From: a virus
IMG/VR virus record: IMGVR_UViG_3300034374_012018
Span: 1 to 23,687 of that record
Length of the DNA: 23,687 nt
Direction: 5' to 3' (one strand)
The first letter of the stretch is position 1. Each line of letters starts with the position of its first letter. The notes below the pieces were generated by a model. It saw only the letters and a program-made list of their open reading frames with translations. It did not search any database and was not told the DNA's origin. Made by a program: the position numbers and the translations under genes. Shown in pieces: positions 3,565 through 21,335 of this stretch.

Positions 3565-4031
3565 TATTTTTTGCTTTCAATTAATTTGATGATTTGATCA
3601 GCATTTAATCCTTTAGTATCAAGTTCTAAAGCAGTAGCAATTTCAACTAAAGCTTTTTTATCTTGTTTTTTAAGATCAATATCAGAAAGATCAATTCCTT
3701 CTTCGCCTTCAGAATCAGAATCTTCTTTAGACTCATCTTCTTCACCTTCAGAATCAGCATTAGCAGCTTCTTCAGCAGCTAATTTTTCCTCTTCAGCTTT
3801 TTTAGCAGCTTTTTTTTCTGCTTTAATTTGAGCAGCAGTTTTAGCTTTTGGCTTCGGAGCTTCGGCAACTTCAACTAATCCTGAAGTTTTAACTAAAGCT
3901 TCATACATAGGATGTTCTTTAATTAATTTTGATTCAGCATCAGATAATTCATTTTCACCTTCTTTTAAAGTAATAGTTCCTGTTGAAACTTTAAATCTTA
4001 AAAGGCCTTTAGTTCTTTTTAATATTTTCAT
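3564..4031 (-). CDS. Putative virion-associated protein with charged linker and HeH/SAP-like C-terminus
   Basis: The protein has 155 residues in three visible parts. Residues 1-55 form a compact start (two short beta segments, then 'GENELSDAESKLIKEHPMYE'). Residues about 57-112 are low-complexity Ala/Lys and then Glu/Asp/Ser-rich (a flexible linker). Residues about 117-155 ('DIDLKKQDKKALVEIATAL', then 'GLNADQIIKLIESKK') look like a small helix-extended-helix or SAP-type domain. Proteins of this size and style often lie between the capsid gene and the connector genes in related phages. It is the first gene after the terminator that follows the capsid gene. Its exact role is unknown. Confidence 0.5.
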   Translation of the reverse strand: MKILKRTKGLLRFKVSTGTITLKEGENELSDAESKLIKEHPMYEALVKTSGLVEVAEAPKPKAKTAAQIKAEKKAAKKAEEEKLAAEEAANADSEGEEDESKEDSDSEGEEGIDLSDIDLKKQDKKALVEIATALELDTKGLNADQIIKLIESKK

Positions 4032-15036: not shown

Positions 15037-15061
15037 CCTTAAATTGCAAAAAATAAAATAT

Positions 15062-15143
15062 ATTTTAAAATATGTAAAATAATTGTTTACATTAAAGATT
15101 TAAGGATCTATAATATAAAAGTCAGTTAGACAAATAAAAACTT
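15062..15143 (+). repeat. 82-base perfect direct repeat, copy 1 (carries promoter P1)
   Basis: These 82 bases are identical to 18009-18090. They include an AT-rich upstream block (ATTTTAAAATATGTAAAATA), both promoter boxes, the spacer, and the start of the mRNA leader. The two copies flank the accessory gene block 15162-18003. Confidence 0.85.
15086..15114 (+). promoter_or_regulatory. Rightward early promoter P1
   Basis: TTTACA (15086-15091), 17-base spacer TTAAAGATTTAAGGATC, TATAAT (15109-15114). The spacer is identical in P2 and P4. An AT-rich UP-like block lies just upstream. Transcription should begin near 15121, giving a short leader that ends in CTTTAAAATGATAAAA before the first gene. 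Confidence 0.85.
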
Positions 15144-15161
15144 TAAAATGATAAAAATAAA

Positions 15162-15530
15162 ATGAATAATTATAAAAAATTCAATTGGCAATATTTTGTA
15201 ACAGATAGAAGGCAATTTTTAGCAATTATTAAACAAATTCAAAGAAAAGGAACTTTTAATAAGTATGATATTTATCAAATTGATAATTGTTTAAGATTTA
15301 CTTCTATAAGAAATTATATATTCCCACAATTTGAAAAAACCCCTTCTATTTATATTACTTTTAATTACGGCGATAAAGTAGATAAAAAATATTTCTTTGC
15401 AGCTTTACAAGACTTTAAAAGAAGTTTTGAAGAAATAGAAAAAGTAACTGAAATAATTAAAATATATAAACCTAGAAATGAAATTTGTATATTTTTCAAA
15501 AAATTAATTAAAAAGCTAATTAAATTTTAA
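15162..15530 (+). CDS. Unknown early protein, 122 residues, basic C-terminus
   Basis: The first rightward gene after promoter P1. Aromatic residues are frequent ('NWQYFVTDRRQFLAII', 'YIFPQFEKTPSIYITFNYGD'), and the C-terminus is Lys-rich ('FFKKLIKKLIKF'), which could contact nucleic acid or membrane. I do not recognise a family. The ATG overlaps (ATGA) the stop of a five-codon leader frame beginning at 15148. Codon use and A/T richness match the neighbours. First genes of early operons are often host-takeover or anti-defence factors, but there is no motif evidence for that here. Confidence 0.7.
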   Translation: MNNYKKFNWQYFVTDRRQFLAIIKQIQRKGTFNKYDIYQIDNCLRFTSIRNYIFPQFEKTPSIYITFNYGDKVDKKYFFAALQDFKRSFEEIEKVTEIIKIYKPRNEICIFFKKLIKKLIKF

Positions 15531-15592
15531 AATAAGTATTAAATAATATTTTAAAATATGTAAAATAAATTTTAAAATATGTAAATTAATTG

Positions 15593-15621
15593 TTTACATT
15601 AAAGATTTAAGGATCTATAAT
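15593..15621 (+). promoter_or_regulatory. Rightward early promoter P2
   Basis: TTTACA (15593-15598), the same 17-base spacer as P1 and P4, and TATAAT (15616-15621). The AT-rich upstream block is present twice in tandem (15548-15590). Transcription should start near 15628, at the base of a hairpin. Confidence 0.85.
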
Positions 15622-15624
15622 ATA

Positions 15625-15653
15625 TTTATCAATTGAGCAATCGATTAGATAAA
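15625..15653 (+). promoter_or_regulatory. 5'-end mRNA hairpin with GCAA tetraloop (P2 leader)
   Basis: TTTATC-AATTGA pairs with TCGATT-A-GATAAA around a GCAA loop (GNRA type), with one bulged A. The related hairpin after P3 has AATTGA/TCAATT, so the single changed base (C to G opposite T) keeps a wobble pair. It would lie at the extreme 5' end of the transcript, a position where hairpins protect mRNA from decay. Pairing is visible; function is inferred. Confidence 0.6.
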
Positions 15654-15677
15654 TATAAACTTTAAAATGATAAAATT

Positions 15678-15857
15678 ATGAAAACTTTAAATGAAAAAAT
15701 CTCTTTAGTAAGACAAGAAATTAAAATTATTGATGAAAAACTTACTAAATTATATGAAGAAGGATTTAAAAAGAATCAAATCAGAATTGAAGATTTAGAA
15801 GCTAAACAAAATCTTCTTAAAGATGAAAGAGAAGAATTAATTTCTAAAACTATATAA
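15678..15857 (+). CDS. Small coiled-coil protein, 59 residues
   Basis: Starts MKTLNEKISLVRQEIKII and continues with regular Leu/Ile/Lys/Glu heptads over nearly its whole length, ending 'EREELISKTI'. It is the first gene after promoter P2. Its ATG overlaps (ATGA) the stop of a four-codon leader frame at 15667-15681, and its stop is two bases before the next ATG. No family is recognised; a single coiled coil of this size probably works as a partner or inhibitor bound to another protein. Confidence 0.65.
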   Translation: MKTLNEKISLVRQEIKIIDEKLTKLYEEGFKKNQIRIEDLEAKQNLLKDEREELISKTI

Positions 15858-17220: not shown

Positions 17221-17480
17221 AAATAGGAAATTATAATAAACCGGTTAATCGTCAATTACAATATAAAACTAAAGAGAATATTTATAGCAGAATTAAAAAG
17301 AGTAGCAATTTTATTATAAATAAAGTTAAAACTGAAAATATTTATGGTTTTCAATTAATAACTGAATTATATAATATAGTAGATAATGATTTTAAAGATA
17401 TATCTGATAAAAAACAAGATATAATAATTATGAGATTATGGGATAATCTTGACAGAAATATAAATAAAAAATTAATGTAA
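17217..17480 (+). CDS. Unknown basic early protein, 87 residues
   Basis: A basic protein rich in Lys, Asn and Ile: 'NYNKPVNRQLQYKTKENIY' at the start and a helical C-terminal half ('FQLITELYNIVDNDFKDI', 'IIIMRLWDNLDRNINKKLM'). The ATG overlaps the stop of the previous gene (ATGA), with a GAGG just upstream that also encodes the previous protein. It is the last gene of the P2 transcript before promoter P3. Function unknown. Confidence 0.6.
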   Translation: MKIGNYNKPVNRQLQYKTKENIYSRIKKSSNFIINKVKTENIYGFQLITELYNIVDNDFKDISDKKQDIIIMRLWDNLDRNINKKLM

Positions 17481-17509
17481 AATATATTTTAAAATATGTA
17501 AATTAATTG

Positions 17510-17538
17510 TTTACTATTATATTTTTAAGATTTATAAT
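17510..17538 (+). promoter_or_regulatory. Rightward early promoter P3
   Basis: TTTACT (17510-17515), 17 bases, TATAAT (17533-17538). The upstream AT block and the downstream leader match those of P2, but the spacer (ATTATATTTTTAAGATT) differs from the one shared by P1, P2 and P4. Confidence 0.82.
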
Positions 17539-17543
17539 AGTAA

Positions 17544-17568
17544 TATCAATTGAGCAATCAATTAGATA
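17544..17568 (+). promoter_or_regulatory. 5'-end mRNA hairpin with GCAA tetraloop (P3 leader)
   Basis: TATC-AATTGA pairs with TCAATT-A-GATA around a GCAA loop, with the same bulged A as the P2 hairpin. Transcription should start near 17545, so the hairpin would cap the mRNA. Confidence 0.6.
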
Positions 17569-17594
17569 AATAAAAACTTTAAAATGATAAAACA

Positions 17595-17816
17595 ATGAAA
17601 ATTAAAAAATCTGTAAACTTAATGACTATAAAAGAAATTAAAGCAAAATTCTTAACTAATCAAATATTAGATATGATCGTAGAGTTTACAAATGCTGCTG
17701 AAAAAATAGAAGCTAAAATAAGACATTCTAATAATCAATTCTTTGCTGAAGTTCAAACCTCTCTTCTTAATATGGAAATATCAAAAATCCGCAAATTAGA
17801 ATCAATTGTAAATTAA
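17595..17816 (+). CDS. Unknown small helical protein, 73 residues
   Basis: Nearly all helix: 'MTIKEIKAKFLTNQILDMIV', 'AAEKIEAKIRHSNNQFFAEV', 'SLLNMEISKIRKLESIV'. It is the first gene after P3, and its ATG overlaps (ATGA) a four-codon leader frame at 17584-17598. No family is recognised. An internal Met at residue 10 is a less likely start, given the conserved leader at 17595. Confidence 0.6.
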   Translation: MKIKKSVNLMTIKEIKAKFLTNQILDMIVEFTNAAEKIEAKIRHSNNQFFAEVQTSLLNMEISKIRKLESIVN

Positions 17817-17823
17817 TAGAAAT

Positions 17824-18003
17824 ATGTCAATACCAGTTCAATTAGAAGCTAAAAGATTATTCGAAGAAAACGGAGAAAAAGCAATTGATATTGCTAACCG
17901 TAGAATTGAAAACTTTAAAAATCAGCATTCTAAAGAGAGTGATTTTTGGTATCAAGTATTGACAGAAATCGAAAGACTAATTGAAGAAATTAATAATAAG
18001 TAA
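17824..18003 (+). CDS. Small helical protein, 59 residues, alphaproteobacterial-type family
   Basis: The sequence 'EAKRLFEENGEKAIDIANRR' followed by 'SDFWYQVLTEIERLIEE' follows a pattern (A-x-x-L-x-x-x-x-G-x-x-A-x-x-x-A-x-x-R ... W-x-x-V-x-x-x-I-x-x-L) I associate with a common family of tiny alphaproteobacterial proteins of unknown role. It starts seven bases after the previous stop and ends at the edge of the second 82-base repeat region. The match is from memory and supports the host guess only weakly. Confidence 0.6.
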   Translation: MSIPVQLEAKRLFEENGEKAIDIANRRIENFKNQHSKESDFWYQVLTEIERLIEEINNK

Positions 18004-18008
18004 AATAA

Positions 18009-18090
18009 ATTTTAAAATATGTAAAATAATTGTTTACATTAAAGATTTAAGGATCTATAATATAAAAGTCAGTTAGACAAATAAAAACTT
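18009..18090 (+). repeat. 82-base perfect direct repeat, copy 2 (carries promoter P4)
   Basis: Identical to 15062-15143 (offset 2947). After it the copies differ only by single-base insertions over the next 15 bases. Confidence 0.85.
18033..18061 (+). promoter_or_regulatory. Rightward early promoter P4
   Basis: TTTACA (18033-18038), the common spacer, TATAAT (18056-18061). It is the only clear promoter before the 82-residue gene, the 180-residue gene and the nuclease gene, so all may be read from it. Confidence 0.85.
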
Positions 18091-18093
18091 AAA

Positions 18094-18342
18094 ATGATAA
18101 AAATTAAAATGACTAAATTTAATAAAACAGAAGAAATATTTTTAGAAAGAGTAGTTTTAACTTTAGTAAAAGAAAATAAAAAACCTACTTCAGAAAATAT
18201 AGAACAAGCTATTAAAAATATTTTAATAAGAGATAGAGAACTTTATAAACAAAAAGATAAAGTTTGTAAAGTTGTAGGCGGTATAGTATGGAATAAAATA
18301 CAGAAAAAAGAGATAGATAGAAAAACTTTAAATTCTATATAA
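18094..18342 (+). CDS. Unknown small early protein, 82 residues
   Basis: The protein starts MIKIKMTKFNKTEEIFL and is helical and basic ('IEQAIKNILIRDRELYKQ', 'IVWNKIQKKEIDRK'). Compared with P1, the mini-frame ATGATAAAAATTAAA is here in frame with the gene, so translation may start at 18094 or at the ATG at 18109, which matches the starts used after P1-P3. No family is recognised. Confidence 0.6.
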   Translation: MIKIKMTKFNKTEEIFLERVVLTLVKENKKPTSENIEQAIKNILIRDRELYKQKDKVCKVVGGIVWNKIQKKEIDRKTLNSI

Positions 18343-18359: not shown

Positions 18360-18451
18360 TTTACAACTGACTAGATTTATTGACAAGCATTAGATTTTTA
18401 AAAGCAATAGAATCGAATAATAATTGTAAATGACGGCTCGGAAAGACGAGC
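18360..18451 (+). promoter_or_regulatory. Structured intercistronic region with repeated hairpin
   Basis: Positions 18343-18485 have no gene. ATTTACAA (18359-18366 region) pairs perfectly with TTGTAAAT (18424-18431 region), closing a long loop, and is followed by the hairpin GCTCG-GAAAGA-CGAGC (18436-18451), which recurs exactly at 21218-21233. No promoter boxes at proper spacing are found. An attenuator, processing site or protein-binding RNA element is possible. Confidence 0.45.
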
Positions 18452-18485: not shown

Positions 18486-19028
18486 ATGTCTTTAGAAAAT
18501 GAAATTAAAAAGCTTAGAGAATCAATAGAATATTTAGGTAGTGCCGTGACAAATATGTTAGAACCTTATAATGGATTAGAATATAGTATTGATGAATTAA
18601 AACATGCTATTTTAGGCAAATTAGAAAAACCTGAATTTGTAGAAAACATAACTGATCCTAAAAAAACAAAAGCTAAAAAAGAAGTTGAGGTTATAATTAA
18701 GCCGGCTCCTAAAGCTGTTGAAATTCCTAGCGAGGTTAAAGAATTAAGTGTCGGTTATAAACCTCTTGAAGAAATTGCTCCAGTTGAAGAACAATCCAAA
18801 TCTATTGAAAAAGTAGAAATCAAAAAAGAAGAAGATGAAATTGAAATTTCTGAAACTGTTACTTATGATGATCTTCAAGAATTAGCTAAAGCTAAAATGA
18901 AACTTCCTAATATTGATAGAAATGATATTAAGAAAATTGTTAATGATATTAAGAAAGATGCTCAAATTTCAGATTTAAATACTGAAGAATTAGCAATCGC
19001 TTATGAAAACATTAATAAATTAGGATAA
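18486..19028 (+). CDS. Unknown acidic helical protein, 180 residues
   Basis: Residues 1-50 form a helical start ('LENEIKKLRESIEYLG'), residues about 55-120 are a Lys/Glu/Pro-rich linker, and residues about 124-180 form a compact helical domain ('VTYDDLQELAKAKMKLPNI' then 'LNTEELAIAYENINKLG'). A similar C-terminal helical domain occurs in phage proteins next to DUF2800/DUF2815 genes. It sits two bases before the nuclease gene. A role as an accessory to the nuclease or ssDNA-binding protein is plausible but not shown. Confidence 0.6.
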   Translation: MSLENEIKKLRESIEYLGSAVTNMLEPYNGLEYSIDELKHAILGKLEKPEFVENITDPKKTKAKKEVEVIIKPAPKAVEIPSEVKELSVGYKPLEEIAPVEEQSKSIEKVEIKKEEDEIEISETVTYDDLQELAKAKMKLPNIDRNDIKKIVNDIKKDAQISDLNTEELAIAYENINKLG

Positions 19029-20518: not shown

Positions 20519-20547
20519 TTTACATTTAAAATCTATATATTTATAAT
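20519..20547 (+). promoter_or_regulatory. Rightward promoter P6 (ssDNA-binding protein and polymerase)
   Basis: TTTACA (20519-20524), 17 bases, TATAAT (20542-20547). The spacer is unlike that of P1/P2/P4. Transcription should begin near 20554, inside the first strand of the pseudoknot-like element. Confidence 0.82.
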
Positions 20548-20551
20548 AAAT

Positions 20552-20591
20552 ATTGTTCAAGTGTGGCGATTTGAGCAATTACTTTTTGCCA
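20552..20591 (+). promoter_or_regulatory. Possible H-type pseudoknot at the 5' end of the ssDNA-binding protein mRNA
   Basis: Stem 1: ATTGTTCAA (20552-20560) pairs with TTGAGCAAT (20571-20579), eight Watson-Crick pairs and one wobble. Stem 2: loop bases TGGCGA (20564-20569) pair with TTGCCA (20586-20591), five Watson-Crick pairs and one wobble. Loop lengths are 3, 1 and 6 bases (8 if stem 1 begins at the predicted start of transcription), as expected for an H-type pseudoknot. An unstructured A/U-rich run leads to the ATG at 20622. Confidence 0.55.
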
Positions 20592-20621
20592 ATATAATTA
20601 TTAACTTAAAATTTAAATAAA

Positions 20622-21145: not shown

Positions 21146-21298
21146 ATGGCGGTGTTTATTATTTTAAACGGTGTAGTAGCTTAAAGGTGAATAACTTGGT
21201 ATAAAAAATAATTGACAGCTCGGAAAGACGAGCATTCTTTTTATGTTTAAATGTGTCGTCATTTATAGTTAAACGTTCCAAATTATTTATGGCGGCAC
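21146..21298 (+). promoter_or_regulatory. Structured leader of the DNA polymerase gene with alternative pairings
   Basis: The gap 21132-21335 has no gene. GTGTCGTCAT (21253-21262) can pair with ATGGCGGCAC (21289-21298) over 10 pairs (two wobble), or its last eight bases with ATGGCGGT (21146-21153), so the two structures exclude each other. A small hairpin GTTTA/TAAAC lies at 21154-21169, and the repeated GCTCG/CGAGC hairpin at 21218-21233. After the 21298 stem comes TTTT. It resembles an attenuator or RNA switch; no known class is recognised. Confidence 0.45.
21218..21233 (+). repeat. Repeated hairpin GCTCG-GAAAGA-CGAGC, second copy
   Basis: Exact copy of 18436-18451. Here it is followed by ATTCTTTTT, so it could act as a weak terminator; the loop could also pair with TCTTTT just downstream. 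The first copy lacks such a T-run close by. Confidence 0.6.
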
Positions 21299-21335
21299 TT
21301 TTAAGCATAAAATATAAAATCATAAAACGAATATA

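Follow-up and report, generated by a model that had tools for sequence, protein, structure and literature searches.

In the window (the complete 23,687-nucleotide stretch of viral DNA analysed here), the leader of a DUF2815 ssDNA-binding protein gene is predicted to fold into a pseudoknot at the very 5′ end of its mRNA, which raises the question of where such an element came from and what it may do. The original prediction, made from the sequence alone, had compared this leader to the autoregulatory operator of T4 gene 32. The analysis presented here points to another origin: the element is probably derived from a type II hammerhead ribozyme that decayed and lost its catalytic activity, with a knotted 5′-terminal stem retained under selection.

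The predicted pseudoknot and its surroundings

Both stems of the original prediction were found to pair as proposed (Table 1), and both helices were supported by relatives of the window. With the additional G-U pair, an 8-base loop (TGTGGCGA) remains. When scored with simple stacking energies, positions 20552-20621 gave a best H-type pseudoknot of -22.9 kcal/mol, a value attained in none of 1000 dinucleotide shuffles of this 70-base leader (mean -10.4, SD 2.6) and, among 1890 70-mers tiled on both strands, solely by the two that hold the 20552-20591 pseudoknot. The hairpin without the pseudoknot was less striking (z -1.2 for 70 nt and -1.8 for 44 nt). An Rfam search of the window leader matched no family, and a nucleotide search among annotated phages returned no convincing match to it. 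As promoter P6 ends at 20547 and is followed by a 6-nt discriminator, transcription is expected to start around 20554, i.e. within the 5′ arm of stem 1 and only a few bases from where this stem begins, in agreement with the placement of the pseudoknot at the predicted 5′ end of the P6 transcript.

The sole Pfam match of the downstream protein is PF10991, representing the DUF2815/Enc34 ssDNA-binding proteins, which are of the T7 gp2.5 type (PMC5686142); the protein is thus not a member of the gp32 family of ssDNA-binding proteins. The A/U-rich run reported to precede its start codon is present, but is not specific to this gene: AACTTWAAA...ATAAAA is found before many unrelated genes of the window, few of which have a Shine-Dalgarno sequence, and the numbers of UUAAA/UAAA units before such genes equal or approach that of the ssDNA-binding protein gene. 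Since the same run also precedes other genes of this phage, its interpretation as a special operator was rejected. More generally, most genes of the window, on both strands, lack a clear Shine-Dalgarno sequence, and AACTTWAAA...ATAAAA is located approximately 20 bases 5′ of many start codons.

Table 1. Features of the leader and the downstream gene (window coordinates)
Feature	Position	Strand	Remarks
Sigma70-like promoter P6, TTTACA-17-TATAAT	20519..20547	+	11/12 consensus bases; predicted +1 ~20554
Stem 1, ATTGTTCAA with TTGAGCAAT	20552-20560 with 20571-20579		Extra G-U pair possible at 20561/20570
Stem 2, TGGCGA with TTGCCA	20564-20569 with 20586-20591		
Stem I 5′ strand, ATTGTTCAAG	20552..20561	+	Counterpart of the stem I 5′ strand in hammerheads, which would be the new 5′ end after cleavage in relatives
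Loop I, TGTGGCGA, 8 nt	20562..20569	+	20564-20569 is the pseudoknot 5′ strand; same loop as hammerhead loop I of L035/L079
Stem I 3′ strand, TTTGAGCAAT	20570..20579	+	
Linker, TACTTT	20580..20585	+	CUGANGA plus stem II here in hammerhead relatives; core absent from the window, probably by loss
Pseudoknot 3′ strand, TTGCCA	20586..20591	+	Within TTTGCCAATATAA, common to L010 and L035
A/U-rich translation start region with AACTTAAAA	20592..20621	+	No Shine-Dalgarno; generic for genes of the same phage
DUF2815/Enc34_ssDNA-bd gene, PF10991	20622..21131	+	E 1.6e-29; T7 gp2.5-type ssDNA-binding protein

Hammerhead ribozymes in the corresponding leaders of relatives

A number of relatives whose DUF2815 proteins are 42-76% identical to that of the window were shown to carry a complete type II hammerhead in the corresponding leader, and the loop and tail UGUGGCGA ... 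UUUGCCAAUAUAA represent the loop I/3′-tail pseudoknot of these hammerheads. Rfam family RF02276 (Hammerhead_II) matched DUF2815 leaders at or above the gathering threshold in L098 (46.7 bits) and L107 (37.0 bits), and the leader of L010, which encodes a protein 76% identical to that of the window, scored 34.5 bits (E 1.1e-7 for the record); nothing scored above the cut-off in control genomes. The L010 leader reads AAC-GAAA-CACATAATTGTGT-C^ATCAAGC-AGTGGCGA-GCTTGAT-CTGATGA-GTTTTGCCA and is a complete type II hammerhead whose pseudoknot is made by the loop and tail that are found in the window. In type II hammerheads, this pseudoknot joins loop I to the tail following stem II and, as observed by in-line probing, its formation does not require the remaining parts of the ribozyme (Perreault et al. 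2011, PMC3088659).

In the loci covered by a structural motif scan, complete hammerheads were confined to DUF2815 leaders, 12 of them distinct (complete cores in L010, L035/L079, L056/L058, L076, L077, L078, L080, L082, L084, L098-L101, L105 and L112). By inspection, the leaders of L083, L094, L116 and L187 were also assigned to hammerheads, L083 and L094 being without a clear stem II. The window loop TGTGGCGA is identical to the loop of L035/L079, and the window tail TTTGCCAATATAA was also found in L010 and L035. A DNA pattern consisting of loop and tail matched 64 stretches across the collection, nine of which are DUF2815 leaders. Promoters resembling P6 are present in the L005, L010 and L077 leaders and, in L010 and L077, the promoter places the transcription start directly before the ribozyme. 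A search of the open-licence literature returned no earlier report linking hammerheads with DUF2815 genes. A hammerhead-like sequence, apparently of type III order, was also observed in L193 (~3729-3758, minus strand), a locus in which no DUF2815 gene was found.

In the window, positions 20540-20600 contain neither the catalytic CUGANGA nor a GAAA with an NUH cleavage site. RF02276 did not match the window record at E values up to 10, and the structural scan detected no hammerhead anywhere in the window. The window and L005 both lack the catalytic GAAA and CUGANGA, while stem I and the pseudoknot are kept. As the window copy is devoid of GAAA, stem III, the NUH site and CUGANGA, self-cleavage is not possible.

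Conservation of the helices and history of the core

Three viral contigs were found to be near-copies of the window (98-100% protein identity), whereas L005/L006 encode a DUF2815 protein 74% identical to that of the window. The L005 leader keeps both helices, with one mismatch. Between the window and L005, stem I changed from A-U to G-C twice, from U-G to U-A and from G-U to G-C, and stem 2 from G-U to A-U; the retention of both helices with such paired changes supports the pseudoknot, the strands of which are nearly constant across a protein distance of 26%. The L005 linker, at 4 nt, is short for a full knot with all ten stem I positions paired, and some end pairs may therefore be open. A DNA-pattern search for further core-less leaders returned only known relatives and chance matches within genes and, with only two independent core-less leaders, constraint after core loss would rest on few changes. 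Sister leaders L081 and L086 carry a GCCAAC/GCCAAT tail in the absence of the UGGC loop or a hammerhead core, and may represent further ribozyme losses.

The original prediction had proposed covariation in both stems as a check, and this was borne out by two-sided changes for stem I, whereas the second helix displayed conservation and G-U-type changes only. For the covariation counts, the stem I, loop and tail pieces of 16 distinct leaders were segmented by hand. Each of the seven stem I pairs was altered on both sides, with 95.5% of cells paired; because of this manual segmentation, such absolute figures lean towards structure and favour stem I to some degree. The controls nevertheless still speak for stem I, as its covariation score was attained in 0 of 500 shuffles and slid versions scored far lower. 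The four pairs of the pseudoknot core were 98.4% paired, and this helix is supported by conservation and compatible changes, rather than by two-sided changes.

A tree built from 103 DUF2815 proteins placed every hammerhead carrier in a single 34-row clade that includes the window (SH-aLRT 99). Within the protein tree, L005 was weakly paired with the hammerhead-bearing L010 (SH-aLRT 93 in one tree; bootstrap 80 and SH-aLRT 50 in the other), a pairing that would imply two losses or leader exchange. A clade of the window and L005 was not rejected (p-AU 0.20), and the promoter-stem I junction TTTATAATAAATATTGTT, which is identical in both, suggests a single loss. Sequence identity between the L010 and L077 leaders is 93%, while the corresponding proteins, 76% and 58% identical to that of the window, respectively, are located on different branches, which makes leader exchange or strong constraint likely. 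Loss of the core is better supported than its gain, short of proof.

The position of the stem was compared across those DUF2815 leaders that lack a hammerhead and have a recognisable promoter (24 leaders, including those of the window and L005). A hairpin at the predicted +1 (first pair no more than 6 bases from it) was present in 23 of these leaders (mean z -2.2), suggesting that the conserved outcome is a 5′-terminal stem. In 28-base segments, the mean z was -1.8 at +1, compared with -0.5 to 0 at the other offsets at which at least 20 leaders could be scored. Most DUF2815 relatives display a simple 5′ hairpin alone, without a pseudoknot of the window type. Leaders with a simple hairpin, a hammerhead or a window-type knot would all yield a stem at the very 5′ end of the mRNA.

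Additional structured elements were observed in these loci. A second conserved leader hairpin (UGAC-n-stem-GGAAAGAC-stem), which exhibits compensatory stem changes, is located at 18431-18451 and 21213-21233 of the window, and is also present in L003, L004, L005, L010, L056, L058, L076, L077 and L085, as well as in L132 (three copies, at 3722, 3941 and 4062) and L155 (at 3840). It precedes early genes (the gene at 18486, DNA polymerase and, in L085, the DUF2815 gene), and an Rfam search at both window copies of the GGAAAGAC hairpin matched no family. A long hairpin with the conserved loop AACGUUCC is situated between the ssDNA-binding protein and DNA polymerase genes (window 21238-21310; L010 ~770-880) and, in L010, its loop is complementary to GGAACG directly before the polymerase start codon. 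A 132-base promoter module is also present in the window in four diverged copies (15048-15179, 15555-15686, 17472-17603 and 17995-18126; TTTACA-17-TATAAT or similar). In two of these, with promoters at 15593 and 17510, a hairpin of the TTATC-AATTG-AGCAAT-CGATT-A-GATAA type lies directly 3′, with a compatible G-U change.

Alternative readings and the proposed origin of the leader

The T4 gene 32 operator requires a 5′ pseudoknot and UUAAA/UAAA units (PMC535899), and the window shares with it a predicted 5′-terminal pseudoknot, a subsequent unstructured A/U-rich stretch with UUAAA/UAAA units and a gene for an ssDNA-binding protein. The original prediction had interpreted this arrangement as a possible operator on which the DUF2815 protein nucleates at the pseudoknot, spreads over the A/U-rich run and blocks its own translation. 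The pseudoknot, its predicted 5′-end location and its conservation, including the retention of both helices in the core-less L005 leader, withstood the analysis; the proposed feedback gained no specific support. Unlike in T4, the knot appears to be ribozyme-derived, with a ribozyme counterpart at the corresponding site in relatives, and the start region has no Shine-Dalgarno sequence. Most DUF2815 leaders lack such a pseudoknot, and the A/U-rich run and its units are generic in the same phage. The protein belongs to an unrelated, T7 gp2.5-type family, and the study of the Enc34 protein never uses the word RNA (PMC5686142). As relatives carry complete hammerheads with the same, already described pseudoknot, ancestry explains the knot without a protein ligand. 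Autoregulation by the DUF2815 protein is possible, but a gene 32-like operator is considered quite improbable.

A hammerhead ancestry might also have left the stem and pseudoknot as a mere remnant of recent ribozyme loss, now acting as a plain 5′ hairpin. Such a remnant would be compatible with the simple 5′ hairpins that seem to be enough in most relatives and with there being just two known core-less lineages; it is nonetheless judged unlikely, given the paired changes between the window and L005 and the near-constancy of the pseudoknot strands at the protein distance that separates them. Inverted repeats directly 3′ of a promoter are in typical operator positions, and the location of the +1 hairpin would fit a repressor site acting in DNA instead of an RNA element. 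Among relatives, however, the arms differ in sequence but remain paired, with G-U pairs and loops of the GAAA type present, and a pseudoknot such as that of the window would be senseless in duplex DNA, making a DNA operator very improbable.

Descent from a type II hammerhead, with selection for the retained knotted stem, is the reading that we prefer. The window element shares with type II hammerheads (RF02276; PMC3088659) stem I, the 8-nt UGGC loop, the pseudoknot with the GCCA tail and the position in a phage leader, and relatives are full members of this family at the corresponding site; it differs by the missing GAAA, stem III, NUH site and CUGANGA, and by a predicted transcript start in place of a cut. 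The ancestral ribozyme would have been located in the leader of the ssDNA-binding protein gene, with the order retained by relatives (GAAA, stem III, NUH^, stem I, CUGANGA, stem II and the loop I/3′-tail pseudoknot). We infer that the ribozymes of relatives cut in vivo; cleavage would occur directly 5′ of stem I, so that the mRNA would start with a base of stem I. CUGANGA and the segment comprising GAAA and stem III would then have disappeared from the window lineage, with stem I and the pseudoknot retained, and the promoter appears to be positioned so that transcription begins at stem I, approximately where a ribozyme cut would leave the 5′ end.

The 5′-terminal stem probably shields the mRNA. 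Stems at the 5′ end are known to block access of RppH and RNase E, thereby stabilising the mRNA (PMC3997798), and the knotted stem may have been selected because it guards the 5′ end from decay of this type while the start region stays open. The bacterial stabilising stem-loops of ompA and papA (PMC3997798) are comparable in that the window stem, like that of most DUF2815 relatives, begins where the mRNA itself is predicted to begin, and different in that the window possesses a pseudoknot of putative ribozyme origin. A further parallel is provided by the HHphage hammerhead of haloviruses HF1 and HF2 (PMC3088659), which is also found in the leader of an early replication gene and for which the mRNA 5′ end lies no more than 3 nt from the cut site; this hammerhead has a variant core that is believed to be active, belongs to archaeal viruses and precedes a helicase gene.

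Phages and prophages commonly carry hammerhead ribozymes, the biological role of which is an open question (PMC3088659, PMC10085705). The present analysis describes a hammerhead family with a single conserved location in the leader of a phage ssDNA-binding protein gene, together with one lineage that is devoid of the ribozyme and keeps the would-be RNA end. Tentatively, and with some doubt, these phages may maintain the same 5′ end of this mRNA either by hammerhead cleavage or, once the ribozyme has been lost, through a transcription start at the position of the former cut. The window lineage thereby offers a direct, testable idea of the purpose of the hammerhead cut: if such replacement is true, phage type II hammerheads would serve to fashion the 5′ end of an mRNA, rather than to regulate by cutting.
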